Assembly (NCBI GenBank): GCA_963971405.1
Contig: OZ020490.1
Coordinates: 20,485,464-20,549,463, forward strand
Direction: 5' to 3'
DNA length: 64,000 nucleotides
Origin: Psococerastis gibbosa
Lineage: Eukaryota; Arthropoda; Insecta; Psocodea; Psocidae
Within the stretch, counting starts at the first letter, position 1; every line of letters begins with the position of its first letter. The notes below the pieces were generated by a model. It searched no databases. It saw only the letters and a list, made by a program, of their open reading frames with translations, and was not told where the DNA came from. A program made the translations under genes and the position numbers. Of this stretch, positions 2,855 through 64,000 are shown in pieces.

Positions 2855-2969
2855 GGTGTACTGGTAAGATTAGGTTACACAAGCACTTTGCACACGCGAC
2901 AATTTTAATTATTATTTTTAATTTTTCTTTTTAATTGATTTTACGGAACATCTTGGTTTCCCGATTTAT

Positions 2970-2983
2970 CTGGGCCCATAACC
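2970..2983 (-). other. Primer-binding site of Copia copy 1
   Basis: On the minus strand GGTTATGGGCCCAG follows the LTR directly. It is complementary to positions 26-39 of animal initiator tRNA-Met (the anticodon arm), the internal priming site known for Drosophila copia. Confidence 0.85.
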
Positions 2984-3240
2984 TGTTGGGTTATGCCTTG
3001 GATCGGTTTTAAATTTATAGATAAAAAAATATCACACTTTGAATTAATATTGTGTATTCGCCATCTTTGTAGCAAGGAAGTAAAAAAACATTGTAAACTC
3101 TAAACAGTGTCACAGACAATGTCATAGACAAACAAAAAATATTATTAAATTAATATTTATTTTCATTATTATTATTTTTAATTTTATTATTATTTTATTA
3201 TGAAATAGCAAAAATTATAATTTAAAAAATTATTTCAACA
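2984..3240 (-). repeat. 5' LTR of Copia copy 1
   Basis: 257 bp with inverted ends TGTTG and CAACA. It differs from the 256-bp LTRs at 52322 and 56698 at least by one extra A in an A-run near 3137, so this insertion is not the direct sibling of the other. Confidence 0.95.
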
Positions 3241-3790
3241 CTGGAGTGCTAAAAGTGAGTTGGCAAATATCTGTCGCTATCACGAGTAAACCTCATTACT
3301 CCATGCCGATTAAGAGCCAATTGGATATACTGTATGTGTAAAAATCAAATATCTCAATCGTAAAGTTGTCAAAATATCAGGACAAACAAAGCATTTTCTG
3401 AGCATTTTGATACATGATATGTATGAGTGAGATACAGTATATACCTCTTTCTAACATGGATTGGCAACAATTATTTAATTTGATTTTTAGAAAAACCGAG
3501 TGGTTTGGTAGTCCCGAGGAAGGAGTTCAAGAATTGGTGTTAGTGAAAACCACATGTCATGTATCGAAATGTAGATTTCTGCTTTTTTGCTCATTTAACA
3601 GTTATTTTTGATGGTTCTAAGATCGATATTTCCTGTGAAAATGTACAAATTTCAAAAAATGCGTAGTGGGGTTACTCCGATTTGGTCTTAAGTTGGACCT
3701 CATCCATCAATTCAGTTTTTCAAACCAGGTCCAGAAGGGGGAAGCTTTCCACAGTAGTTAGCTTAAAAAATCGTCGATTAGCAGTCGAAT
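3241..3790. other. AT-rich spacer, no gene recognised
   Basis: Short open frames only, with no recognisable domain, splice pattern or repeat. It probably belongs to an upstream intron of the myosin gene. Confidence 0.4.
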
Positions 3791-48316: not shown

Positions 48317-49869
48317 TTATTCAAAATCAACATCGCTTCCACTTTCAAGACCCATTTTCAATTTTAAATATGCCATTTTCTTCAGTCTCATCTTCTTAGT
48401 CAGCCGAATTTTCTCCGCAGTAAGACGTTTGGCTTCCTTCTCCAAATTGGAAACCAACTCAGTTGCTTCAAATAGGATACTAATTTTCGATACAAGCCCC
48501 GTAGAAGGAGATAACAAAGGTATTTCCTTTTTAAGCGCGGAAAAAGCCGCTGCCGCTTCTCTCCTCCTAAAACGTTCTCTAGCGTTGTGATCGTCACCAT
48601 TTCTTCTTTTCAATTTTTCTTCATTATTTAAAGTAGACTTGATTCTCCTAAAACGTTCTCTAGCGTTGTGATCGTCACCATTTTTTCTTTTCAATTTTTC
48701 TTCATTATTTAAAGTAGACTTGATTCTCCTTTGCTTTTTTGTAGTAAACGCGGTTTTCCTTCTTCGTCTCTTTTTTTTAAATATAAGGCTATATATTGTG
48801 TCTTGATCAAGCCGATCCATCTGAACATCGCTATCTTTTACTCTTTCAGAAAGAATCTGATTTGTTGCTATAGGGGATGGACAATCGCCACCTTTTGAGG
48901 AATCGTTCGATGTGTTATCATGGTCCATAATTCTTTGGACAGGTTCTTTCGGACTTCTATCATTATCACTCGCATAATCTGGAAATCGCTTTTTAGAAAG
49001 TGGACGAGAGGTTCTGCGTACCCATTTTGAAGTGCCTACCTTTTCAGATAACATGTCTACTTTTTCTGGAAAAATTACTTCAGACGACAATTGACTGAGA
49101 GCTTCATCTCCATTCTGGTGGTTCAATTCTTCCCTTTCATCATCGGAAATTAGCCCTAAGCATTCATCAATCATAAGTTCTATTGTAGGACGTCTCAAAG
49201 GCTTTTGAGTGGATATCCCAGATCCGTTATCGTCTTCAAAATTGTATTTCCTGTCCAAAGAAGAAACTTTACTTTTATTTTCTGAATCAGATTTGTCTAT
49301 GCTCGCCACCGCATCCACTGCACATCTTTTCAAAAGAGAAGATGTAATATTTGAAACAGACGTCCTTTTTTTTGCAGTATTAGGGTATATACTCAAATGC
49401 TTAATTAGAGGTTTCGCTGTTTCGTCAGTGGAGTATCGTTGTTTAGTATGGGAAGGAAGCAAATGATCTTGTTTTTTTGTATGAAGTAAACTTTTAGTGG
49501 AATCTATGTGTTCACTTTTATTCATCACTGTCACAGGTTTTAAAAGGGAAATTTCACAATTTGTAAACAAAGCCAATTTTTTAGTAGTAACCGTACCTGG
49601 AAGTTCTACATTTTTGGAAAAAAACTCATGATCCTTTGGAAAACTGTCTGTCATAAAATATTCTTCAACCAGGCTTTTCGGTTTGCAGTAGTCATGGTCG
49701 ATATTTGGTGGAACGGTGTAGAAGTGTGCTGGAATATGCAGGCTGGGGTCAGGAGATAAAGGCCCTAAAAACTGATTTAATTCAAAGTCGCTTTCTGACA
49801 TACCGCTTTCGCTGTCCGATGGGGTGTCATTTTCTGATAAATGTGATGCATTATATTTCACTACGCCAC
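48317..49869 (-). CDS. Myc-like bHLH-leucine-zipper transcription factor, terminal exon
   Basis: Large last exon after TTTTTCTTTTAG at 49870; the first two bases complete a codon, so at least one upstream coding exon is missing and the apparent GTG start at 49861 is not real. Numbering from that GTG (514 residues): an acidic, Ser-rich, probably disordered region; basic stretch K-K-K-R-R-R-R-K near 365 (likely nuclear signal); two tandem 27-residue units each ending D-H-N-A-R-E-R-F-R (His at 398 and 425); helix 1 with F-S-A-L-K-K-E-I-P-L-L; helix 2 with S-K-I-S-I-L-F-E-A-T-E-L-V; then a zipper with Leu spaced by seven. The H-N-x-x-E-R-x-R-R pattern is that of CACGTG-binding Myc/Max-class proteins, and the K-x-x-I-L-x-x-A-T helix 2 favours Myc. 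Myc boxes I-II, usually in an earlier exon, were not found. Confidence 0.75.
48564..48725 (-). repeat. 81-bp tandem duplication inside the bHLH exon
   Basis: Units 48564-48644 and 48645-48725 differ at one base (C/T). Each encodes one 27-residue basic-region unit, in frame. A short CTCCT follows as the start of a third unit. Confidence 0.95.
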
Positions 49870-52316
49870 CTAAAAGAAAAAATATAGATACGTAAAATTA
49901 ATTTTAATCCTTACCTACTGTATATTCATATCTAGTAGCTATTGAAAATTAATAATGATAAAGGTAATGAATAAGTTGGATGATTTTGTCAGAATATATA
50001 TATGCTTCCGTCCCCATCTTGAATCTCAAGATGAAGTATATTTTCCTCCAGTGTGCGATGGACTGCCAGCAGGTGGGGAGAATTTGACAAATTGATACAA
50101 TCTCGACACTCAAGCTAAATGCCAGTAACATTATTAGAATGCTTTATAATTGAGAATTTATTTATTTATATAAATAACTGGGCACCATCTTCAATTTTAA
50201 GGTCGATTACATCCTATTTTCGAAAAATCTTTTGGTCTCGCCTAACATAATTTATATGCAGAACTAAGGTATAGAGGAAAGCTTTAACCTACGATAGTCA
50301 GAAGAAAAATGAGTCCGACGTGCAAGCTGGCACGCTTGCTTTCTCTGGATTAGCGTATACCAGGCTTAAGGCCAGCAAACAAATGAATTAGCATCACAGG
50401 CATGTGGCCTCACTGCAGGGGCTGAATGACGTCTGAACGTTAAATCCCTTGCGCGCCCACTGTACTCTTATTCGACCACCAGCCTTTGTCATGTTGTGGG
50501 TAAACGGCGGCAACCTCATGTTGGGCAGTAGTAATTTAAAAAAAAAAAAAAACATCCGAATATATGTATTGATTAATTTGGTTGGCCGTCATCTTGAAAG
50601 TTGATAACACAAGCCACCGCAAAATATTGTATATCTTCGGAGAAGACTTGCCTTTCCCAAATGCAATTACACTTATATGTACTGTAATGTAATAAATCTA
50701 TTGACATTGATTGATACTGACATACATTTAACAAGTGTAATAATAAAGAATAGTGGCAGTTGTTACATAAGAATATAGAATTGAATCGGGTCCACCGGGA
50801 CTCGGGAGACTTGTTGCATCGTAGTAAAGCACATTTTGAGCTCTCTCAATGAAAACGGTTCATCATAAGTTTTATTTCCCCCAGTAAGGGGAGAAAATCA
50901 ACATCAAAAGCATATTTGTCAAGATCATGCTTTGATATAAGACTGTAAGAGAGGCTCGAGATCGTCGCGTCGTGAGATACTAGTAGGACTACTTCAGCTT
51001 AGTGTTCAGCTAACTGAAATCGTTCATTGCCATTATAGTGGATAAAAAATGCTAACTTTCAGTCACCTTTTATTCCATGCCTCTATAAGCAATATTAACT
51101 AAGTTAGGAATTTTTGATCGGCCGCCATCTTGAAATGAAACGGCAGAGCGGGCTGGTTAACGAATTTGATAGGTTTATCATAATCACAATAATATCAATT
51201 GGCAAGTATCATGTCATTATTTTCACTTTGACTGGCCGCACCATCATAAAATCGTTGATTTGTCGTAAAAATGATTAAATATCGTTATCTTAGATAACAA
51301 TTCAGACTTTCCCATAACTTATTCCATCCCTCTCTGACCAATATTAACTGAGATAGGAATTTTTAAGCTTTTGATCGGCCGCCATCTTGAAACAAAGTGG
51401 CAGATTTAGCTGGTCAATTAGCTTTATCAAAATGGTGGTGATCCCAACGCGCCTTTTTGGCTTTGTAGCAAAGGTTTAGTAAAATTTGTAATGTTTTTTT
51501 TGTTGTTGTTGATAAATACACGCATTATTATTATTATATTATAGTAAATGTATGAGCCAAGTTTCATCAAAATATGACAATATCTATGGAAGCTACAGTG
51601 CTTCGATGTACATACAGTATATAGTATACATACTGAACAATTGAAATTGAACTAATACCATCACGTGACATGGTATTATATTAACCCCGGTATTAAAATC
51701 GCCATGGTCGGGCTGCAGCAGCTGCAAGTTGAGAGAAGGGGGAGATATGATAAACACAACGTCGAATGCCAATGTAGGGTTGTTTGAATCGTGAGATGAA
51801 GAGATGATAAATATGTAGAAAAACAAGTCCTCTCTGACAATTCAACTAAACTCGAGTAGAATACTACTTGTACCAGCTATACAAAATCACAGTGAAAAAT
51901 ATTGGTAGTTAACGTTCCTCTGTAGGCTATGCCCGTATTAACCTGACGCGCTACCTCGCGGCCTCTTTGTTTGGCTTATTTCTGCTATAACTTTGCATAA
52001 CTAAAGGGAACCTTTGTATTTGTTCAGTTATAAACTTTTTCTTCGCCGAACCATTTCGCCGCATTAATAATTAACTTACCATTCATACTTAATATTAGCA
52101 ATTAACAGTTTCAAAGTAGTATCTCACAATGCGGACGCGGCCATTTGCCTGTTATTTTGTGATTTTGTTGTCGCACTTTTTTAGAAATAAAGGGAAATTT
52201 TTATTTGTGACATTGCGACAAATTTAATGCCCGCCTTATAAAATATCGATCGATTAACTAACGACAAACGAGAGTTGATTCTCGAGTCACAGAATAATGA
52301 TAAAAAAAATAGAAGG
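49870..52316. other. Upstream/intron region of the bHLH gene, no exon found
   Basis: R2-related blocks (CGGCCGCCATCTTGAAA, GTTGATTTGTCGTAAAAA) occur at about 51060-51430, and an ATACCGGGG-type fragment near 51690. Earlier coding exons of the bHLH gene would be expected here or beyond 52.3 kb but could not be picked out. Confidence 0.4.
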
Positions 52317-52321
52317 GCCAG

Positions 52322-52577
52322 TGTTGAAATAATTTTTTAAATTATAATTTTTGCTATTTCATAATAAAATAATAATAAAATTAAAAATAATAATAATGAA
52401 AATAAATATTAATTTAATAATATTTTTGTTTGTCTATGACATTGTCTGTGACACTGTTTAGAGTTTACAATGTTTTTTTACTTCCTTGCTACAAAGATGG
52501 CGAATACACAATATTAATTCAAAGTGTGATATTTTTTTATCTATAAATTTAAAACCGATCCAAGGCATAACCCAACA
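52322..52577 (+). repeat. 5' LTR of Copia copy 2
   Basis: 256 bp, ends TGTTG and CAACA, identical by eye to 56698-56953. TCTATAAATTTAAAA near 52547 is a possible TATA element. Confidence 0.95.
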
Positions 52578-52591
52578 GGTTATGGGCCCAG
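52578..52591 (+). other. Primer-binding site (initiator tRNA-Met, internal)
   Basis: GGTTATGGGCCCAG directly follows the LTR, complementary to tRNA-iMet positions 26-39; the match ends there. Confidence 0.85.
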
Positions 52592-52706
52592 ATAAATCGG
52601 GAAACCAAGATGTTCCGTAAAATCAATTAAAAAGAAAAATTAAAAATAATAATTAAAATTGTCGCGTGTGCAAAGTGCTTGTGTAACCTAATCTTACCAG
52701 TACACC

Positions 52707-54575
52707 ATGCACGAAGACGTAAAAATTGAAAAATTAAATGGTCCAAACTACCTCACGTGGAAATTTCAAATAGATGTCATCTTAAAATCGATATATGCGT
52801 ACGACATTGCAACCGGAACGGAACCTTTACCAAGTATCCTTACCAAGGATAAAAAAGATGATACATCGTGGATAAAAACTGACATAAAAGCTCAACGACT
52901 AATTGTAACCTCAGTGGATAGCAGCCAAATTGTGCATTTACTAACATGTACAACATCAGCCGGAATGTATAAAGCATTAAATGATCTCTACAATAAGGAC
53001 ACTCATCAACAAAAATGTTCTCTTCTAACGGATTTTTACAACTTTAAATTGGAAGATGTCAACAAGGGAATTGCTGAAATAAAAATAATTATCCATAGAC
53101 TAGCTTCATTGGGAGAAAAGTTAACAGACGAGATGGTTGTAACAAAGATTGTATCTTCTCTTCCCGAAAAATTCAACGCCTTCAGAAGTGCTTGGGAGTC
53201 AGTCACTGCAAAAGATAAGACGCTTGCCAATCTTTTTTCTCGCCTTCAATTAGAGGACGAACGATGTGGAAACAACTCAGTAGCATTCAAAACACTAGCC
53301 CAAGGTAAAAGTACTCTATCTAATTCTAATTTTAAAAATAAAAATGAACTTTTCTGTACGTATTGCAAATTAAGAAATCATAGGATTGAAAAATGTTTTA
53401 AAAAAGCTGGAGATGAAAGAAATACGCTTTATTGCGGAATTTGTAAAAAGAGGAATTCGCACCGATCCTCAGAGTGTTTTTTCCGTAACAGAAATAGAGA
53501 AAATGGTGACAGCAATAATAATAAAGTTTTTTTGGTATCTAAAAATTCCAATTACTTTAATAATAATAAAAGTATTAGCTTAGTTGTCGATAGTGCAGCA
53601 AGTAAACATTTAGTTAATAATTTAAATTGTCTTGAGAATAGTAATCCTGCAATATCAAAATTCAGTTTAGCAAAAAAGAATGAATCCTTATTTGGAACGG
53701 CCATAGGAACATTAAAGAGTGAGAGTGTGACATTAAACAATGTAGTTTACGTACCGGAGTTATCTCAAAATCTTCTTTCTGTTAAAAAAATCACCGATAA
53801 AGGTGGGTTTGTATTATTTTCAAAAGGAAACGTAGAAATTATTAATTCAAAATTCGAAACTGTCATGGAAGGTAAAGAAAATAACGGTTTGTTCGTTGTT
53901 AATTTAAAATATGGTAAAAACCAAAATTTAAAAAATAGAGAAAATATTTTTTCTGTGAATGATTATGACGACATTTATGAATGGCATAGAAAATTAGGTC
54001 ATATTAGTTTTAAAAATTTGCAAAGACTTGCAACAATGTCAGATGGAATAAAAATAACTAAAAATTCTTTAGATATTAAAAATTGTGAAATTTGTATTAA
54101 AGCTCGACATGCTCGTGATCCCTTTAGTGGAAATTTAAAGCGTGCTACTCGAATGCTCGAAATAATTCATAGTGACGTCGAAGGTCCCTTTGAAATTGAA
54201 TCTATTGATCAATGCAAATATTATGTATCAATAATTGATGATTTTACGTGTTATAGTGAAGTACATCCTATAAAAGCAAAATCAGACGCAGCAAATGTTA
54301 TAAAAAATTTTATTTTGCGAGCCGAAAATGAAAAAGGTTTAAAAGTATGCAGATTTAAATGTGACGGTGGAGGTGAATACCTGCCATTAAAACAATGGTT
54401 TTATAATAGAGGAATATTTTTTGATGTAACTGCTAGTTATAGTCCTCAAATGAACCCTCGTTCAGAAAGATTAAATCGGACAATTACTGAAAAAATAAGA
54501 AGTTTACTCTTTGATAGTAATGTTAATAAAAATTTATGGAGTGAAGCGGCTAAGACAAGTTGTTTTTTTTCTTAA
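52707..54575 (+). CDS. Copia gag-protease-integrase (first part of frameshifted gag-pol)
   Basis: 622 codons. The N-terminal gag domain opens with K-L-N-G-P-N-Y-L-T-W-K (copia-type gag). Zinc knuckles lie near residues 216-229 (C-T-Y-C...H...C, spacing 2-4-4) and 244-258 (C-G-I-C...H...C, spacing 2-5-4). Protease motif V-V-D-S-A-A-S near 292-298 has Ala where most families have Gly. The GAG-pre-integrase zinc region starts near 423 (W-H-R-K-L-G-H, then C-E-I-C). The integrase core has H-S-D-V near 489, C-D-G-G-G-E near 552 and R-S-E-R-L-N-R near 588. The frame ends eight residues after a run of Thr-Ser-Cys-Phe-Phe because of an extra base in a T-run. The element's proteins package RNA and insert the cDNA. 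Confidence 0.93.
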   Translation: MHEDVKIEKLNGPNYLTWKFQIDVILKSIYAYDIATGTEPLPSILTKDKKDDTSWIKTDIKAQRLIVTSVDSSQIVHLLTCTTSAGMYKALNDLYNKDTHQQKCSLLTDFYNFKLEDVNKGIAEIKIIIHRLASLGEKLTDEMVVTKIVSSLPEKFNAFRSAWESVTAKDKTLANLFSRLQLEDERCGNNSVAFKTLAQGKSTLSNSNFKNKNELFCTYCKLRNHRIEKCFKKAGDERNTLYCGICKKRNSHRSSECFFRNRNRENGDSNNNKVFLVSKNSNYFNNNKSISLVVDSAASKHLVNNLNCLENSNPAISKFSLAKKNESLFGTAIGTLKSESVTLNNVVYVPELSQNLLSVKKITDKGGFVLFSKGNVEIINSKFETVMEGKENNGLFVVNLKYGKNQNLKNRENIFSVNDYDDIYEWHRKLGHISFKNLQRLATMSDGIKITKNSLDIKNCEICIKARHARDPFSGNLKRATRMLEIIHSDVEGPFEIESIDQCKYYVSIIDDFTCYSEVHPIKAKSDAANVIKNFILRAENEKGLKVCRFKCDGGGEYLPLKQWFYNRGIFFDVTASYSPQMNPRSERLNRTITEKIRSLLFDSNVNKNLWSEAAKTSCFFS

Positions 54576-56604
54576 TCGCAGTCCAACAGTTAATAGCAAG
54601 GCAACGCCTATAGAAAATTGGACTGGAAAAAGACCAGATTTAAAAAATTTAAAAATTTTTGGTTCTGAAGCTTATGCCAAAATTCTACCTCGTGTTAAGA
54701 AGCTTGATGAAAGATCAAGAAAATTGATATTCGTTGGTTATAATCATAATGGTTATCGTTTGTTTGACCCAAACATTAAAAAGATTGTTATTTCTAGGGA
54801 TGTTATTTTTCCTGAAAATTCACTTAAAATTAAAAATAAGCTAAAACCTGAAGAAATGGTAAAACTTGATTTTAATGTTTCAGAATTTTTCAAGGATTCA
54901 GAGTCTGAATCAGACAAGCACCAAGTGAGCCCACGTAGAGTCAATGAATCTGTGGAGGAAATAATCAGTGAAAATGATGCTGACGGTGAGTCTGAATCAG
55001 AACCTGAAACTCCAAAGGAATACCCTTATAAATTAAGAAGTAGAATTAATCTACGGAAACCTGCTACACTTGATGATTGTGAAACTAATTTAACTGATCT
55101 ATTTGATGATAGCGTATATTTAACGTTTGAAGAAGCCGTAAAAGGCAATGAATGTAAAGAATGGGTAGATGCTGTAGAGAAGGAGAAAGAATCGTTGATT
55201 TCTAATAAAACTTGGATTTATATTCCAAAAGCAGAAGCTGAAAATAATAAGATTTTGACTTCTCGCTGGATTTTTCGCAAAAAAGATAATAATACTTTTA
55301 AAGCCAGACTCGTTGTAAGAGGTTTCGAACAAGTAAATGGCATAGATTTTACCGATATATTTAGTCCAGTGGTAGATTCAAATAGTTTACGATTGTTATT
55401 TGCTTTAGCAGCAAAGAAAAAAATGCTAATTGCTTCATTTGATATAAAATCTGCATTTTTAAATAGCGATCTTAATGAGAAAATTTTTATGCATATTCCG
55501 GAAGGATTTAAAAACGCTAAAAACAAAGACAAAGTATGTCTATTAAAAAAGTCATTGTACGGACTTAAACAATCTCCAGCATTGTGGAATTCTAAGTTGA
55601 ATGATTATTTATTATCGATTGGTTTACAGAGATTAAAATCAGATCCTTGTATTTATTGTAATACTGATAAAAGATTGATAATTTCAATTCATGTTGATGA
55701 TGGATTAATAATAAGTAAAAATGAATTGATGTTGAATGATTTTGTAAAAAAGCTAAGCAAACTTTGCGAAGTTACCTATAACAAAGACATAAAGAAATAT
55801 GTAGGTATTGAAATTTTGAGAACTAAAGCTGGTATAAAAATTAGCCAGGAGAAATATGTTGAAAACATGCTTAAAACTTATAATATGTTGGAAGCAAATT
55901 CTGTTAAAACTCCAATAGGTAATCAAAAGTCAGATAACAGTAAAAATATATCCTTTCCATACCGCGAAGCAGTCGGTAGTCTCTTATATTGTTCTACTAA
56001 AACACGACCAGATATAACTTTCAGTGTGAATTATGAAAGTCGTTGTATTGAACCTAAAACTGATAATGTTTCCGATGTAAAAAGAACTTTAAGATATTTA
56101 AAAGGTACAAAGAATTTAGGAATAACTTATAATGGTTCAAATTGTAATAAACTAATTGCATATTCAGATGCAAGTTACGCAGATGATGAAATATCTCGGA
56201 AAAGTACCACAGGTTTCGTGATTTACTATTGTGGCGGACCTGTAGCTTGGTGTTCAAAGAAACAAAATATTGTAACACTTTCCACTACTGAAGCTGAATA
56301 TATAGCAGCTGCAGAATGTCTAAAAATGTGTTTGTTTTTGAAATCTTTAATCCAGGAATTAACTGGTGAAAAATTGGAAATCTTACTATTTGTTGATAAT
56401 ACTAGTACAATTGAAGTAATGAAAACTGGTTGTGGAAAACGAACAAAGCACATAGATGTAAGATATAAATTTATTACTGATCTAGTAAAGAACAAGGTAG
56501 TAGAAGTAAAACATGTTCCAAGTAGTGAACAAGCAGCAGATATTTTTACAAAAGCTCTACCTAATTCTTCATTTGAAAAGTTTAGAAAAATGCTTGTTGA
56601 TTAA
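54511..56604 (+). CDS. Copia reverse transcriptase-RNase H (second part of frameshifted gag-pol)
   Basis: 697 codons in the next frame, overlapping the first part; the nominal start is not a real initiation site, since copy 1 reads through in one frame. Integrase C-terminal linker G-S-E-A-Y-A-K, an acidic spacer, then RT: W-I-F-R-K-K, K-A-R-L-V-V-R-G-F near 270, F-D-I-K-S-A-F-L-N near 310, S-L-Y-G-L-K-Q-S-P near 350, and the catalytic H-V-D-D near 394 (Tyr replaced by His). RNase H: Y-S-D-A-S-Y-A-D near 551 and L-S-T-T-E-A-E-Y near 590. It ends in a zone homologous to other copia C-termini (H-I-D-V-R-Y-K-F, A-D-I-F-T-K-A-L), so the C-terminus is complete. Confidence 0.93.
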   Translation: MIVMLIKIYGVKRLRQVVFFLNRSPTVNSKATPIENWTGKRPDLKNLKIFGSEAYAKILPRVKKLDERSRKLIFVGYNHNGYRLFDPNIKKIVISRDVIFPENSLKIKNKLKPEEMVKLDFNVSEFFKDSESESDKHQVSPRRVNESVEEIISENDADGESESEPETPKEYPYKLRSRINLRKPATLDDCETNLTDLFDDSVYLTFEEAVKGNECKEWVDAVEKEKESLISNKTWIYIPKAEAENNKILTSRWIFRKKDNNTFKARLVVRGFEQVNGIDFTDIFSPVVDSNSLRLLFALAAKKKMLIASFDIKSAFLNSDLNEKIFMHIPEGFKNAKNKDKVCLLKKSLYGLKQSPALWNSKLNDYLLSIGLQRLKSDPCIYCNTDKRLIISIHVDDGLIISKNELMLNDFVKKLSKLCEVTYNKDIKKYVGIEILRTKAGIKISQEKYVENMLKTYNMLEANSVKTPIGNQKSDNSKNISFPYREAVGSLLYCSTKTRPDITFSVNYESRCIEPKTDNVSDVKRTLRYLKGTKNLGITYNGSNCNKLIAYSDASYADDEISRKSTTGFVIYYCGGPVAWCSKKQNIVTLSTTEAEYIAAAECLKMCLFLKSLIQELTGEKLEILLFVDNTSTIEVMKTGCGKRTKHIDVRYKFITDLVKNKVVEVKHVPSSEQAADIFTKALPNSSFEKFRKMLVD

Positions 56605-56953: not shown

Positions 56954-57411
56954 GCCAGTATTATAGCCGCCCTTATGGACAAGAAGCGCGGTCTCGTTTC
57001 TGTCAAGGGAACTACTGTAACTACGTTAGTTGTTCATTTTATTAATAATATTAAGAAGAAACACGTTAAATTAATTGTCAAAACAGTTTTTAAATTATTT
57101 TTGTATCGAAACTGCATCATTTTAAATATATAAAAATTCCAAAATTTTAAAAGTGGTTTAATGACTTGTTGTTTGCCGGATGCGCGGATGACCGTCGAGG
57201 CGTCGACCGAATTGACGAATTTTAGTTTCATTTAATTTATCTGATCTACCTCCCGACCACGATTAAATATTATTGAATACATAATACTAATCCTGTTCTC
57301 TAATCCGGGTTAAGAATCGAACATTTAATACGCTCCGCCCCCTTTGGTAACAAAATGCACCAAATCCAGTAATCCAAATTCGAATTCGTGTAACAAAATA
57401 CGCATTTATTA

Positions 57412-57581
57412 GGCGGTATTCCACATACGTCAATATTATTATTCGTCAATGAAAAATGACGTTTTAGCAGACATTAAAGACATACTAAAAATTCTGCTAC
57501 CACAGTACCACGTCAATTTACGTCATTGTTACGTCATTTTTCAATTTTTCATTGACGATTGACGTATGTGGAATACCCGCC
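57412..57581. mobile_element. Foldback MITE, copy M4
   Basis: Ends GGCGGTATTCCACATACGTC and GACGTATGTGGAATACCCGCC-like are inverted. The centre has TTAGCAGACATTAAAGACAT and ATTCTGCTACCA. Outer arms resemble M2; an extra inserted stretch disturbs the symmetry. Confidence 0.8.
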
Positions 57582-58007
57582 TTTAACAACCAGTTTGTAC
57601 TTTGTAGGGCTCTATATTAGAGGTAGGCGCTATATAGGCCTAGTACCTTAGTACTTTGTACACAAATAAGGCATAAGCAAAGGACTGTTTAATAATAAAG
57701 TTATTGATTGGTATCGTTGTGTATCAAGGTTTATGTAATTAAAAAATTGAGTCAGATTGGTGTTGCATTGACGACATAGAGTAGGCTAGCTGGTTCGGCG
57801 CAAATCAGATGGCACCGGACAATTTCTAACCATACTCAGTGACAGCGGAAATTTGTAGTATAGTTCATGAGTCTTCCGATAAATTTCTTCATATTAAAAC
57901 GCCTTACCCATTCATATTTTAGTGATGATATAGGTTTAGGAATAGCATATAACTGCAATATGAATGTGTGTTATTCTGATGACTGCTTGTAGCCTGCCTC
58001 ACAGAAC

Positions 58008-58169
58008 TATTGTATTTATACAAGAAATTAAAATAAAGAACACGCGCTGGTTTAGAATCCATCTTGTAAGTCATATAAAAAGCATAGACCATCGTACAGT
58101 AAACACCACCGTGGCACTAGTCACTCTAGCGCCACTAAGTAAACAAACAAGTTCTCATTCCTTCCAATA
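58008..58169 (-). repeat. 3' LTR of second Copia family
   Basis: 162 bp, identical by eye to 61629-61790. Short for a Copia LTR but within range. Confidence 0.94.
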
Positions 58170-58179
58170 CGCCCTCTTA
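58170..58179 (-). other. Polypurine tract
   Basis: On the minus strand AAGAGGGCG abuts the start of the 3' LTR. Confidence 0.6.
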
Positions 58180-58229
58180 ATGGGAACTTTCACTAACGCG
58201 CAAATTGGTTGCCAGAAAGACAAACTGTT

Positions 58230-61200
58230 CTAACTGTCGATAAAATACTTTGCACAAGATTTGTGCTTCTGGGCGCACAATGACTTGGTTAAAACGTCAG
58301 CCGGCATACTATCAGTAGGCATATACTCAAATTTGATAAGTCCAGTACTTACCAGCTCACGGGCCTTATGATACCGCATATCGATGTGTTTTGATCTCCG
58401 GTTCGTCACATCGTTATTCGCCACATGCTGCGCTGACTGACTGTCATTAAATAAGATTACCGGCTTACTCACCGAGTTTGGAGCTACCTCACCCAATACA
58501 CCTTCCAGGAATTGCACTTCCTTCGCTGCATCAGAGAGTCCCATGTACTCAGCCTCCATTGAAGAAAGCGCAACTGTTGGTTGTTTTCGACTCTCCCAAC
58601 TGATGGGTCCTCCTGCCAACATCATTACGAAACCGGTGTATGAGCGCCTATCGGATGTATCACCACCCCAGTCTGCGTCCACATATCCCACTAGAGGTTT
58701 CTCTGACTTCTGAAATTTTAAAGAAAAATCTTTAGTACCTTTTAAGTATCTCAGTACTCTTTTAGCAGCTGTAAAGTGCTCTGCCCCATGCCTAGCATTG
58801 AACTGGGCTAATTTGCTTACCGCAAATGCAATGTCCGGTCTTGTACAAATAGATATATAGGTAAGACAACCTATGAGTTCTTGATACGGCAAGTCGTACC
58901 TTTCTTTGCCGACCTCAGGGATAGTAAACTGTGTCCCCACTGCCAATGGAGTGGTCGCCGGATTACAGTTTTTCATGTTAAACCTTTCCAACACAGATTC
59001 AATATAATTTGATTGATCCAATAGAATTTGCTCCCCCTTCCGGCGGACACGCATTCCCAATAAATTAGTTACAGGACCTAGGTCTTTAATTGGAAATACC
59101 TTACCCAGACCGTCGATCAGTGTTTTTACTAAGGACTGCTGACTGGAAATTAAATACAAATCGTCAACATACAGCCCCAACAAACTAAATCCCTCCGTAT
59201 TGTTACGGTAAAATATGCAGGGCTCAGCCTTACAGGCCACAAACCCAAAGCTAACCAAAACTTTGGAAAGCGTGTTGTACCAGGCTCTGGACGACTGTTT
59301 AAGACCGTAAATGGCCTTTTGTAACTTGCAAACTTTACTTTCTTGTCCTTGAACTTTAAAACCCGGTGGCTGTCTCATATACACCGTTTCATCTAGGTTG
59401 CTATTCAGAAAGGCGGACGACACATCGAGATGATGGAGGTCTAACTGCCACTCTGCTGACAATGCTAACAGCGTACGTAAAGACGTAAAACGGGCAACTG
59501 GGGAAAAAGTGTCAAAAAAATCAACTCCTTGCGTTTGCGCAAAACCCATTGCAACCAAACGTGCCTTGTGCTTATCAAGTGTACCATCAGGGTTTGTCTT
59601 CAATTTATACACCCATTTACTCGACACAACACGGTGATCTTTGGGAGGATCGACCAGATCCCAAGCACCCAACTTCATAAGAGAACTGTATTCAGTTTGC
59701 ATGGCATTTGACCAATTTGGGTCCTTCATTGCTTGAGCAGTTGAGACTGGTTCAAGAGCTTGAGCATGATACAAGAAATAATCATTCAATTTCTCTGGTA
59801 ATTTCCTTTGCCTAGATAGTACAGTACCTTCATTAGATCGCGCATCATCTACCTCAGTAGTGTAAGACAAATCATCGTCATCTGGGAACGTCTGCTCTCC
59901 AACAGGGTCATCAGTGACTAAAGAATCTTCTTCATTATTGCCAGCAACCGGAGGCTGCCTCTGACTCTGAACAGTACCTCTTCCGGGCACCGTGACAGGT
60001 ATAGGCTGCACTGCAACAGGCACCTGAGTCCCAACTGGTTGAAGATTGAAAATCACGATTTCTGAGCTGTCAGCTCCCCCTTTTTCGGATGAGTTCTGAA
60101 AAATGTTTTCGAAGAAAACAACATCACGGGCAATGACAACATTTTTATTCTGTTTCGGGTCTACCAACCGGAAACCATTTTCTGCATACCCTACGAAAAT
60201 CATACGTTTGCTTTTGGGGTCCAATTTGCGTCTCTTGGCATCAGCGACATGCGCATAGCAAACGCAGCCGAACACTCGCAAATGATTAAGAATAGGCTTG
60301 CTTCCCGACCAAATCTCTTCTGGGGTTTGTCCCCTGGGCAAGACTTTAGTGGGTGTGCGATTTTTCAAATACACTGCGGTTGAAACTGCCTCAGCCCAGT
60401 AAACTGGCGGAAGCCCTGCCTTTGCCAACATAGCCCTTGCCTTGTCCAATAAGGTCCTATTTAACTTTTCACTGACTGCATTCTGGGTACTGTTGTAAGG
60501 AACAGTTAAATAACGCGCAATACCGTGCTTAGCAAGATATTCAGAGAACACTTTACTTGTGTACTCACCACCCCCATCTGATCGCAGTTGTTTAATCTGG
60601 AGGCCTGTCTGATTTTCTACTAAAGCTTTATACTTTATAAAATTAGACAGCACTTCGGCCTTCTCCTTCATAAAGTACACTGTCGTGTGACGCGAGTGCT
60701 CGTCAGTAAATGAAACGAAATACCGCGCACCTCCCAATGACGTGACCTGTGCAGGTCCCCATACATCTGAGTGCACGACACTTAGCTTACCACCACAACG
60801 GCGACTCAAATCAGGTTTCTGGTATGGCTTCTTAAACATTTTTCCTACAGCACATGCCTCACAAGGCTTGTATGAAGAATCCTGAAAATTAACATGATTA
60901 GTTCGTTTAAGAGTGATCAGGTCATTGTTATTTATGTGACCAAGTCGGCTGTGCCAAAGGCTAGCATCAGCCGCTATGTTAATATTTTTACCTGTAATTC
61001 TGGAGTCGGACTCCTGCAGCGAATTACCCAACAAGCGGTACAAACCATTTTTTAACTGTGCTGTTACATGCGGCTTACCTTCTATTTTGACGTCACGGGC
61101 TTTGTAGATAGAACACTTCTTGTCATCAAAAACAGTAATATACCCTTTCGTGGATAGTTTGCCGACTGACAGAAGATTGCAACTTATATCAGGAACCATG

Positions 61201-61664
61201 GACACCTCAGTTATGTCAACAGGCCCCTTGCCCTTAAAATTAACAGTTATCTCACCTTGACCTGTACATTGCAAGGTATTATTGTTAGCTACTGTAATGG
61301 AAGAAGGAGTATTGGAAGTCAGACGAAACTGTGGAAGAGACTGACAAAAATGTCCCGTAGCCCCACTGTCGACAATCCACTCGTCACTCGACGTCGCATA
61401 CTGCGATGCCCCAAGAGCCGCGAGGAACGTACTCTTCTTCCCTGTAGTTGACTCATCATTGACATTCGACAACTTCGTCGGACAGAATTTACGAATATGA
61501 CCCTCTAGCTTGCAACGATTGCATATCACGGGCTTCTTCTTCTTATCCTTATCGGCTTTGTTGCAATTCTTTGCAGTATGATGGCCTTTAGCAGAGTGGC
61601 GCAGTGGAAGCGTGCTGGGCCCATAACCTATTGTATTTATACAAGAAATTAAAATAAAGAACAC
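58230..61664 (-). CDS. Copia pol polyprotein with residual gag; frame reads from LTR through tRNA half
   Basis: 1144 codons. Residues 1-12 come from the LTR and 13-25 from the tRNA-half insert, so the first 25 are probably accidental. Then the second half of a first zinc knuckle (G-H-H-T-A-K-N-C), a complete knuckle at 48-61 (C-N-R-C...H...C), protease D-S-G-A-T at 99-103, pre-integrase region L-W-H-S-R-L-G-H with C-E-A-C, integrase core H-S-D-V-W-G-P and R-S-D-G-G-G-E-Y, RT with K-A-R-L-V-A-M-G-F, L-D-V-S-S-A-F-L-N, I-Y-G-L-K-Q-S and catalytic Y-V-D-D near 830, RNase H Y-V-D-A-D-W-G-G near 990 and S-S-M-E-A-E-Y. The C-terminus is typical (A-D-V-L-T-K-S-L). Catalytic residues look intact. Only distantly related to the other Copia family. 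Confidence 0.93.
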   Translation of the reverse strand: MFFILISCINTIGYGPSTLPLRHSAKGHHTAKNCNKADKDKKKKPVICNRCKLEGHIRKFCPTKLSNVNDESTTGKKSTFLAALGASQYATSSDEWIVDSGATGHFCQSLPQFRLTSNTPSSITVANNNTLQCTGQGEITVNFKGKGPVDITEVSMVPDISCNLLSVGKLSTKGYITVFDDKKCSIYKARDVKIEGKPHVTAQLKNGLYRLLGNSLQESDSRITGKNINIAADASLWHSRLGHINNNDLITLKRTNHVNFQDSSYKPCEACAVGKMFKKPYQKPDLSRRCGGKLSVVHSDVWGPAQVTSLGGARYFVSFTDEHSRHTTVYFMKEKAEVLSNFIKYKALVENQTGLQIKQLRSDGGGEYTSKVFSEYLAKHGIARYLTVPYNSTQNAVSEKLNRTLLDKARAMLAKAGLPPVYWAEAVSTAVYLKNRTPTKVLPRGQTPEEIWSGSKPILNHLRVFGCVCYAHVADAKRRKLDPKSKRMIFVGYAENGFRLVDPKQNKNVVIARDVVFFENIFQNSSEKGGADSSEIVIFNLQPVGTQVPVAVQPIPVTVPGRGTVQSQRQPPVAGNNEEDSLVTDDPVGEQTFPDDDDLSYTTEVDDARSNEGTVLSRQRKLPEKLNDYFLYHAQALEPVSTAQAMKDPNWSNAMQTEYSSLMKLGAWDLVDPPKDHRVVSSKWVYKLKTNPDGTLDKHKARLVAMGFAQTQGVDFFDTFSPVARFTSLRTLLALSAEWQLDLHHLDVSSAFLNSNLDETVYMRQPPGFKVQGQESKVCKLQKAIYGLKQSSRAWYNTLSKVLVSFGFVACKAEPCIFYRNNTEGFSLLGLYVDDLYLISSQQSLVKTLIDGLGKVFPIKDLGPVTNLLGMRVRRKGEQILLDQSNYIESVLERFNMKNCNPATTPLAVGTQFTIPEVGKERYDLPYQELIGCLTYISICTRPDIAFAVSKLAQFNARHGAEHFTAAKRVLRYLKGTKDFSLKFQKSEKPLVGYVDADWGGDTSDRRSYTGFVMMLAGGPISWESRKQPTVALSSMEAEYMGLSDAAKEVQFLEGVLGEVAPNSVSKPVILFNDSQSAQHVANNDVTNRRSKHIDMRYHKARELVSTGLIKFEYMPTDSMPADVLTKSLCAQKHKSCAKYFIDS
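61590..61628 (+). other. 39-bp copy of the 5' half of initiator tRNA-Met, in Copia primer-binding position
   Basis: Starts AGCAGAGTGGCGCAGTGG and ends CTGGGCCCATAACC, matching positions 1-39 of animal initiator tRNA-Met, and stops exactly at the LTR. The 3' half of the tRNA is absent, so it is not a tRNA gene. The last 14 bases serve as the primer-binding site; the other 25 have no place in a normal element. Confidence 0.92.
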
Positions 61665-61790
61665 GCGCTGGTTTAGAATCCATCTTGTAAGTCATATAAA
61701 AAGCATAGACCATCGTACAGTAAACACCACCGTGGCACTAGTCACTCTAGCGCCACTAAGTAAACAAACAAGTTCTCATTCCTTCCAATA
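61629..61790 (-). repeat. 5' LTR of second Copia family
   Basis: 162 bp, identical by eye to 58008-58169. On the minus strand a CTTTTTATATG motif lies mid-LTR as a possible TATA element. Confidence 0.94.
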
Positions 61791-61795
61791 AGAAC

Positions 61796-62936
61796 AACAT
61801 AATGCCTGCCTGCCTTTCAGTTGAATGGGAAGGGATATTGCGCTTGCTATCTGATGGAATACCAGGGGTAGACTACCTAATGTTCGGGTGATGGTGAGAG
61901 TATTTCAGAGTGGAAAGTTATAAAAATAAGAGGATTTAAATTAAGAATGTCTAGTTTTTTTAAAGGAATTTAATAACCCGACTAATTTTCAATTTCACAT
62001 ATTAAATGATAGCTACTATTTCTTACGGTACTTGAGCAAACGAAAGTAATAAAAATTTGTGGGTGGTAAAGTACGGTATAGGTAACATTTGAAGAGGGCA
62101 AGTATAATTTGCTAAGTCTCGTTTCTTCAACTCAACCAAGCAATGACAGGAGTTGACACTATTATTGTATCCTAGGCCCTACTGTCGGTTTTTAATTTAG
62201 GGTTTCCATCGAAGATGGAAAGGGAAGGTGGATGCGAAAGCGATAAAGCGATATAGACTATACTATCAAAGTTCCAATAAAATTGGGATGGGCCATATTC
62301 TATAAGAATTAGCAGACATCACAAGATGAGGTTATTACGCTAGGCCTAGGCAACTAGAGGAACCCTGGTAGACAGGCGAAGAAACCACCAGATCAGAGCT
62401 GGGTTGAACACTGCCGAAATAACTCAAGCTCGGGGGAAAACGCCTGTTATGAAATCGGCATGTTAAAAGGTGAGGCGAGACTTGTCTTATCCCCTGGAAA
62501 AAATTGAGGAGATTGTGGTAACAGGGAATAGGAGAAGCGGAAGACGGAAGATGACGCTGCCGAGAAAGATCCAGATTCCAGGCAGATGTAGACATTCACG
62601 CACGCAATTGTGATAATTATTGGTATGGCCCAACATTGCCCGAGGAAATCTTTTTTTCGGGGGGAAGGAGTCTCAGCCATACCAATCTGAATATTGGTAT
62701 GGGCCGGGCCATACCAAGCCCTATGGAACCGGCGTCCATGCACGCACCCTCACAAATATAGAGAGGGCCGTAGAAGCGCCAATGCCGTGCCACCTACCCC
62801 CGTACGGGATAAGGAGCGGATAATTAAATCATTACTAGTCAAGACGTCATATATAGGCCTAGAACATTTTCGTCGTCTACCAAATTACACTAAACAGATT
62901 TTATCCACCAGTGTTAGACTTACCATACACAAATGT
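61796..62936. other. Spacer, no gene recognised
   Basis: Short open frames only. A small palindrome TTGGTATGGGC/GCCCATACCAA-like sits near 62694-62720. Confidence 0.3.
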
Positions 62937-62944
62937 ACGAAAAT

Positions 62945-63255
62945 CAGGGGCGAAAAGGTGGGGGGGGGGGCACGGTCCAACTGGCCCCCCAGCTCCTTTT
63001 GGGGGGAGCTTAGCCCCCAGCCTCGAGCATTGTAAGACGTGGTTCATACTTCTTGGTCCCCTTTGCATTAATATGAATTAATATAAACATTTCTTTTTTA
63101 GCTTTGTAAAATCTACAGCTATACTATACAACTATTAAAATGCGTAAAACCCCACTATTTTGCTCTTATATTTTCAATTTTTCCTTAAATCCTGCCTGAT
63201 GACGAAGGTCTGCTTAGTTTTGCCCCTGCTATCATTCTAAAACTGTACGCCTCTG
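62945..63255. mobile_element. hAT-like MITE, 311 bp
   Basis: Ends CAGGGGCGAAAAGG and GTACGCCTCTG are imperfect inverted repeats, flanked by ACGAAAAT and ATGAAAAT (7 of 8). Interior shared with 32253-32692. G-run near 62962. Confidence 0.68.
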
Positions 63256-63584
63256 ATGAAAATATTGAATTTTTACATTGTCAGCGTTCAATATGGAACA
63301 TCACTTTGCAATTATGAGTTAAGGTGATGGAATAGCTGAATTTAAGTAAGAGTGTATTTAAATAAGCTAATGTATGGCAATATTTTCACTTAATACTAGA
63401 TTTTAAGAAAAGTTGGATAATTTGAATACTGGCGGGAAACAGACAGCGCCTCTCGTTTCTGCCAACGGTACTGAGGTCGGCCATATTGGATAAATCAACT
63501 TTTTAACATTGAGTGACACCCCCCTATCTCGAGTCTCTTCAGGGCAAGTCGCATTGTCGCAAACTCGTAACAGCAGGGCTGCCG

Positions 63585-63680
63585 TTGTGCGTATAATTAT
63601 ACGCTTTTGCGTATAATTTGAAGGCTTGCGTATCGTCGTGCGTATAATGTTAAATGCGTATAATTTGAGTATAATTTCTT
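63585..63680. repeat. Cluster of GCGTATAAT motifs
   Basis: The motif or near variants (GCGTATAATT, GCGTATCGT, GAGTATAATT) occur about six times in 95 bp, including one palindromic GCGTATAATTATACGC. Confidence 0.6.
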
Positions 63681-63867
63681 ATAGTTTGACCAAAGAAAAT
63701 GTGAGAAAGCAATCTTGAATATTCAATAACAAAAAATCCATTTTTTTAGCATTTGAAAGTTAGCGGGAGTTATTTGATGGGTATAAACCATAGAAATATA
63801 TAAACTGGAACGGCAGGAGCCATAATATCCCTAACGGGGCAATCGTTAACCATAAGTCAACTATCAG

Positions 63868-64000
63868 AGATAATTCTTACTTTTACTTTTACATCGCCTT
63901 TGTCCTCAGGGAGGGTCGGCGGCACGGCAGCGGCGTTTCCAAACAACTCTGTTTAGAGCGTCTTCTTTGTTCAGGGTGAGAGTCCTTATGTCTTCTTCGA
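63868..64000 (-). mobile_element. LINE 3' end fragment at window edge
   Basis: The minus strand reads D-I-R-T-L-T-L-N-K-E-D, then V-V-W-K-R-R-C-R-A-A-D-P-P and a stop, followed by an AAAAGTAAAAGTAAG tail. Close relative of the LINE end at 28030-28375; continues beyond the window. Confidence 0.75.

Follow-up and report, generated by a model that had tools for sequence, protein, structure and literature searches.

How does an LTR retrotransposon come to carry half of an initiator tRNA in the place where its gag gene should begin? The question is raised by a 3,783-bp Copia copy on the minus strand at positions 58008-61790 of a 64,000-nt stretch of the genome of the insect Psococerastis gibbosa (OZ020490.1:20485464-20549463; hereafter the window), which we compared with the assembly as a whole (409 Mb in 68 contigs). 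Half-tRNA priming of copia and Ty5 was reportedly described by Kikuchi in 1986 and by Ke in 1999, and in the literature examined plus-strand transfer has been worked out for Ty1/Ty3 and the retroviruses, not for half-tRNA-primed elements. According to the available portions of the sources, the first strong-stop DNA of Ty1 and Ty3 copies 12 nt of the tRNA and is then discarded, primer sites not being inherited from the tRNA (PMC5371799), and both elements strictly inherit the primer site (PMC7472051).

Architecture of the window element

The features of the element and its flanks are these:

58003..58007, no strand: left copy of the target-site duplication AGAAC, from flank comparison
58008..58169, minus: 3' LTR, 162 bp, with 0/162 mismatches against the other LTR
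58170..58178, minus: polypurine tract AAGAGGGCG (element sense), assigned by position and the same in L009-L017
58230..61589, minus: open pol frame (Pfam), with no start codon upstream of the protease motif
61482..61523, minus: intact second motif CNRCKLEGHIRKFC, read from the translation, which we take to be a zinc knuckle
61563..61589, minus: remnant of the first zinc knuckle, KGHHTAKNC, at the junction, the gag upstream of it missing (translation and relatives)
61590..61628, plus (tRNA sense): copy of initiator tRNA-Met (tRNA-iMet) nt 1-39, by match to tRNA-iMet; AGCAG at 61590-61594 is also in intact gag, and the certain tRNA part is 61595-61628
61629..61790, minus: 5' LTR, 162 bp, identical to the 3' LTR
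61791..61795, no strand: right copy of the target-site duplication AGAAC, from flank comparison

A stop-to-stop open reading frame on the minus strand (58230-61691) spans both the pol frame and the junction. The Pfam domains of pol are Pol_BBD (71-150), GAG-pre-integrase (182-251), the integrase core (271-367), an SH3-like domain and RVT_2 (642-882); this order of protease region, integrase and then reverse transcriptase (RVT_2) in one frame is that of the Ty1/Copia group (Pseudoviridae), as are the LTRs, polypurine tract and 5-bp target duplication. A copia-type gag domain (Retrotran_gag_2) is present in a relative, L009, whose identity with the window copy is 99.7% over 3,420 bp, and a protein search with the family returned 449 proteins at E <= 1e-30, with 32-40% identity among the 120 matches listed. 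The window copy is a gag-deleted derivative of a Copia family. Its first gag zinc knuckle is cut at the joint, where GHHTAKNC is left and the upstream half is gone, just where an earlier, sequence-only reading had placed the far end of the tRNA copy. Because no ATG precedes the protease motif DSGATGH in its frame, this copy would be unable to make a complete Gag and probably cannot make Pol either.

Two Copia copies of another family lie elsewhere in the window (1-3244 and 52318-55561), in opposite orientation and with a 100% match over aligned arms of 998, 2146 and 110 nt. Both carry the ordinary primer site that had been ascribed to them, a 14-nt match (2969-2983 and 52578-52592) followed by ATAAATC, and theirs is the commonest family in our primer-site sample (30/80). 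The minus strand at 48317-49897 has a 526-aa open frame that contains an 81-bp near-exact tandem repeat (48564-48725) and whose C-terminus resembles, by eye, a basic helix-loop-helix zipper.

Identity of the tRNA copy

The 39 bp between the 5' LTR and the broken knuckle are identical to tRNA-iMet nt 1-39. This identity, first proposed from the window alone, is confirmed by five tRNA-iMet genes found in the same genome, all matching the reference over nt 1-47 and called tRNA-Met by ARAGORN; the span originally given, 61589-61628, was right at its end but began one base early. A 39-nt tRNA match adjoining an LTR is not due to chance, because a reversed-pattern control for the 14-nt core alone (nt 26-39) gave 0 matches in 409 Mb. 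ARAGORN found no tRNA gene in the window, as expected where only half a tRNA is present, and the only match in an Rfam scan of 57000-64000 was a CRISPR-repeat family below the gathering score.

Linear nt 39 here is presumably standard tRNA nt 40, one D-loop position being absent. This edge agrees with the half-tRNA start at nt 40 given for Drosophila copia and Ty5 in the available part of PMC1181622. The primer site is complementary to tRNA-iMet up to linear nt 39 rather than to the tRNA 3' end, the Hemivirus-type arrangement; in copia and Ty5, as here, it is set against the anticodon region of tRNA-iMet, as far as the sources extend (PMC1181622, PMC8515867). Priming of the P. gibbosa element by a tRNA half is taken to occur from the position of the primer site and by analogy with these other species. 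The nt 39 edge is common to ordinary primer sites, and the view that the element records the exact length of its primer was overstated.

The parental form and the joint in gag

For comparison with the parent, 15 places were extracted, 12 of which (L009-L020) have the knuckle region. Upstream of AAAGGCC all 12 read GCGTTAGCTGCT; at the joint itself, AAAGGCC is preceded by CACTCTGCT in the window copy vs GTTAGCTGCT in the parent. Common to both is CTGCT, the complement of tRNA nt 1-5, which forms the last 5 nt of the tRNA copy and also belongs to intact gag. Nucleotides 1-5 are consequently unassignable, only nt 6-39 are certainly tRNA, and the true 3' end may lie anywhere from nt 6 to nt 1, so that the exact primer 5' end formerly read from this joint is not fixed by it.

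The primer site is readable in 11 of the 12 relatives (L009-L019), as GGTTATGAGCCCAG in nine, GGTCATGAGCCCAG in L017 and GGTTATGGGCCCAG in L009, and in all 11 it continues into AGCTTTTCTAAG. The family's ordinary site spans 14 nt and in 10/11 differs from the tRNA at one or two positions. Gag DNA is uncut in these eleven, and as far as they go the prediction that full-length relatives would pair a short primer site with gag is borne out. From LTR end to knuckle the distance is 39 nt in the window copy vs 634-695 nt in the 10 relatives measured (L009-L018), nine of which have the gag start MQAFGIERLNG, the frame of L015 being broken upstream; the window copy is without the leader and about 196 codons of gag. 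Over 3,420 bp, nine relatives that keep their internal DNA whole share 99.1-99.8% identity with the window copy, and the parent form is therefore well defined.

Apart from the knuckle region of the window, 13 zinc-knuckle regions were hit by a junction query, for which 40 of 59 candidate places were scored; each of these matches covers query 1-95 and then stops. Within that scope no second copy of the whole LTR-tRNA-gag junction was found in the genome; the junction is seen in the window only, and there is no sign of the lineage spreading without gag that had been envisaged.

A diagnostic base bears on the primer site itself: ATGAGCCC is found in 10/11 relatives and ATGGGCCC in the tRNA genes, the window copy and L023 (a short insertion described below), the eighth base of the site being A in the former and G, as in the tRNA, in the window copy and L023. 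The tRNA-type base points to tRNA templating of the primer region, and the primer-site stretch of the window copy was probably also copied from the tRNA. Since L009 also carries this G, although its site is ordinary in other respects, the base by itself is no mark of an accident. In a comparison with the five tRNA-iMet genes found, the non-tRNA base is kept in 10/11 family copies, L009 being the exception; these 10/11 may mean that, as described for Ty1/Ty3 in the available part of PMC5371799, the tRNA copy is normally not inherited.

Some relatives have irregularities of their own. L016 (G000:C19:2907900-2914800), a family member of 6.4 kb, has two knuckle regions (at 1054 and 3110) within a single LTR pair and the target duplication TGTAC; it is perhaps another replication accident. 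L017 and L019 are missing almost the same internal segment, which runs from query ~1738-1762 to 2878. After its second LTR, L017 has a further primer site, a sign of a tandem element.

A proposed origin and its alternatives

We consider it probable that the window copy is an over-extended plus-strand strong-stop DNA, joined by microhomology to an early-ended minus strand and integrated once. Minus-strand synthesis would have been primed by the 5' half of tRNA-iMet, and plus-strand strong-stop DNA (U3-R-U5) would have been copied from the LTR on into the tRNA half still attached, beyond the usual primer-site limit of nt 26, to the tRNA 5' end (nt 1, at least nt 6). A minus strand that had halted within gag would have had AGCAG as its 3' end, to which the strong-stop 3' end, ...CTGCT, would then have annealed; once the two strands were completed, integrase would have inserted the product. 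The resulting insertion would have two identical LTRs and a 5-bp target duplication, would hold 39 bp of tRNA and would lack the gag N-terminus. We infer the intermediates and the early minus-strand stop, and on this account the window copy would be a rescued dead-end product. An over-extended strong-stop DNA joined inside gag had already been put forward from the window alone, and the tRNA copy fits it. L023, L047 and L042, all described below, provide independent parallels. The identical LTRs (162/162) and the AGAAC on both flanks are likewise as first described; of the suggestion that the altered copy itself transposed or formed very recently, the part about later transposition is needless, since an aberrant cDNA integrated once would give the same LTRs and target duplication.

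The 5-nt overlap at the joint is also compatible with a later genomic deletion, and a 5-nt direct repeat is typical of end-joining deletions. A full-length element might thus have gained the 39-nt tRNA copy and later lost the start of gag between two CTGCT repeats; L042, described below, shows that an element with both tRNA over-extension and gag can exist. We nonetheless judge this two-step history unlikely: no family copy that joins the long tRNA to intact gag was found among the 40 of 59 candidates scored, in keeping with the first account of the locus; identical LTRs leave little time for a second step; and the overlap falls exactly at the primer 5' terminus, where a random deletion need not fall. 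End-to-end pairing is favoured because the overlap sits exactly at the expected 3' end of a full tRNA-half strong-stop.

Other sources for the 39 bp have far lower standing. The five tRNA-iMet genes could in principle have donated their shared sequence to a primer site by gene conversion or insertion, which we hold to be very improbable: the tRNA match goes no further than nt 39, the LTR edge, in 12 of the 13 copies from the exact search, the 2 nt by which L031 runs past it being explained by an LTR start of CA. At G9, where the human tRNA has m1G9, L039/L051 does not agree with the genes, a hint that its template was RNA. An assembly join or chimeric read is less credible still. One junction (L032/L033) does recur in an inverted segment, a possible assembly duplicate, yet a perfect target duplication flanks the whole window element, different junctions of the same kind number 12 on 8 contigs, and the 409-Mb assembly is in 68 contigs.

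A genome-wide series of extended tRNA copies

The element is not a single oddity in this genome. An exact search found the 14-nt core at 187 places genome-wide, a 15-mer at 19 and a 17-mer at 18. Five of the 14-mer places are tRNA genes; at the other 182, the match stops at nt 26 in 168, extends 2 nt further in one (L095) and reaches nt 19 or lower in 13. The share of 13/182 is not a rate: families whose site is imperfect or shorter, the window element's own among them, escape a perfect 14-mer, while tRNA-templated copies from such families are still counted, which biases it upward. The 13 long copies represent 12 different junctions on 8 contigs, with apparent lowest tRNA nucleotides, read by eye where a mismatch is passed, as follows:

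L024 (= L042): apparent nt 10
L025 (= L043): nt 10, reading through one mismatch at nt 17; exact to 18
L026 (= L044): nt 14
L027 (= L023): nt 10
L028: nt 12
L029 (= L046): nt 10
L030 (= L047): nt 4
L031 (= L048): nt 14
L032/L033 (= L049/L050): nt 8, same junction in an inverted segment
L037 (= window copy): nt 1
L039 (= L051): nt 2, through a mismatch at nt 9; exact to 10
L041: nt 14, through one mismatch at nt 18; exact to 19

Three further junctions with substitutions, L136 (nt 12), L137/L138 (nt 10, same junction) and L139 (nt 12), are a biased addition, having been found with queries that contained nt 10-39. The existence of about fourteen similar copying accidents in the same genome suggests a recurring slip in element copying.

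In a sample of 80 among the 100 14-mer places listed, comprising about 17 rough families, 79 match exactly 14 nt and one matches 16. A copy with a base able to pair with nt 25 directly after the site occurs in 1/17 rough families (P = 0.05), a level at which we make no claim that such pairing is avoided.

The contexts of the long copies vary. L042 is an element that keeps gag and has 30 nt of tRNA (to nt 10), with 2 nt (GC) common at its joint; an inherited 30-nt primer site is rejected, as the three relatives examined (3/3) have GGTTATGGGC and TGCACAACGCTGC before the gag ATG region, that is, a 10-nt primer site. L133-L135 represent a family in which the match between primer site and tRNA-iMet is limited to those 10 nt (GGTTATGGGC). 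L047 and L049/L050 have a 25-nt LTR end in common with L081, L093 and L112, whose site is 14 nt, and L044 and L136 resemble L064/L066 and L131 at 22/25 nt. An ordinary relative with a leader is wanting for 8/15 junctions (L025, L028, L029, L031, L039, L041, L137/L138 and L139). The sequence beyond the tRNA in L025/L043 matches other repeats and not a leader, and a search for a relative spanning the leader of L029/L046 found none. In L048 (= L031) and L051 (= L039) the tRNA copy passes directly into host-like DNA with no target duplication visible by eye. By eye, too, the tRNA copy of L044 (to nt 14) is joined to an apparent gag translation in reverse orientation (DVVKEKLLSEALQRED), and the LTR-tRNA of L048 adjoins DNA that reads, on the other strand, like a protein kinase gene (PENVLVDGSGSVKLIDLG).

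Two members of the series, L023 and L047, are tiny insertions made of an LTR, tRNA and an LTR end, with target duplications. The 227 bp of L023 comprise a full LTR, tRNA to nt 10 and the last 40 bp of the LTR, flanked by AATAG. Its joint has a 4-nt overlap, GCGC, the complement of tRNA nt 10-13, with which the repeated LTR end starts at LTR position 123, some 30 nt downstream of a TATA-like TTTATATG (by eye); transcription would start there. As the repeat begins at GCGC, the putative transcription start, L023 has the look of a plus strong-stop DNA whose last 4 nt paired with a minus strong-stop DNA. The 5' LTR of L019 starts at GCGCGTGTTC, the same place as the repeated LTR end of L023, which could be a transcription start or a chance break. 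L047 consists of an LTR, tRNA to nt 4 and the last ~11 bp of the LTR, with AGAAG on both sides. L049 alone leaves its LTR start uncertain, but three relatives place this at TATTGAATTAAC, which reads TTTTGAATTAAC in L047 and immediately follows AGAAG; the target duplication therefore stands.

Where the copies end

Eleven of the 15 junctions end at nt 10-14 (five at 10, three at 12, three at 14) and four lower. With the single mismatch of L025 and that of L041 passed over, the interval nt 15-23 contains no ends; by exact match these two stop at 18 and 19. According to the available part of PMC7293042, human tRNA-iMet carries m1G9, m2G10 and partial m2G26, and N1 methylation leads to reverse transcriptase abortion or random incorporation; a stop before m1G9 predicts an end at nt 10. 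For the 12 exact-search events, the probability of the four ends at that site is P = 0.001 if stops are uniform over nt 1-25 and 0.008 over nt 1-14, and that of a pile of four at any site 0.025 and 0.11; for 14 events with five at nt 10, the figures are 0.00015 and 0.002 for that site and 0.004 and 0.03 for any site. L139 lies outside these figures, and apparent ends are blurred by overlap bases. L039/L051 matches nt 2-39 save for a C at G9, which could, by analogy with the human tRNA, be a misincorporation opposite m1G9, and the window copy, L030 and L032/L033 pass G9 without error.

From these data and the human modifications, tRNA methylation may set where most of the other copies end. Tentatively, then, the series may be a fossil map of reverse transcriptase stops on a methylated primer, ordinary products stopping at nt 26, most escapes at nt 10-14, one running through with an error at G9, and the window copy reaching the 5' end; those captured would be dead-end strong-stop DNAs of the Ty1/Ty3 type, among them plus/minus joins that integrase could insert (L023). 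Quite possibly, instead, the pattern of nt 26 and then nt 10-14 is due to selection, to the way the search was made or to chance microhomology: overlap bases lie inside the apparent ends of L023 (nt 10-13) and L042 (nt 10-11), the ends at nt 12 and 14 as a group (6/15) outnumber those at nt 10 (5/15), and under uniform stops over nt 1-14 the any-site P for four of 12 is 0.11. The human m2G26 is moreover partial, and m2G goes undetected by RT-based methods in the part of PMC7293042 available, which gives no known forced stop at nt 26. Against this, nt 10 is the very stop predicted by m1G9, with the that-site probabilities given above, and the only internal error in L039/L051 falls at G9.

Relation to known systems and significance

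Large retroviral deletions were reportedly described by Pulsinelli and Temin in 1991 where plus-strand transfer goes to the wrong place (cited in PMC9278108); that work is said to concern retroviral vectors and primers used at the tRNA 3' end. In Ty1/Ty3 the dead-end strong-stop DNA, considered with polypurine-tract recycling (Lauermann and Boeke; PMC5371799, in part), also copies part of the primer tRNA; there the copy is 12 nt long, whereas here an over-long product on a presumed tRNA-half primer appears to have been captured and integrated. Integrated captures of this sort would be indirect evidence that such dead-end DNA accumulates. In HIV-1 a methylated primer base, m1A58, sets the strong-stop end, and failures read further into the tRNA, as described in the available part of PMC13191261; unlike that primer, the half primer here has no position 58, its candidate blocks being G26 and m1G9. 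Helenus and Ajax, in the portion of PMC10886601 available, are also short non-autonomous LTR elements with tRNA-like or 5S sequence, but in them the tRNA-like part sits within the LTRs, makes up families and is not complementary to the primer site. In the literature searched, mostly outside subscription journals, we found no report of integrated copies that hold a whole half-primer.

Over-extension of this kind would allow integrase-ready elements that lack gag or are very short (227 bp) to arise in a single step. Any animal genome that holds Copia elements of this type is open to the same search. If the proposed origin is true, assembled genomes may hold enough captured strong-stop DNAs to map the transfer step without biochemistry, and the methylation state of the primer may perhaps be readable from genomes too.
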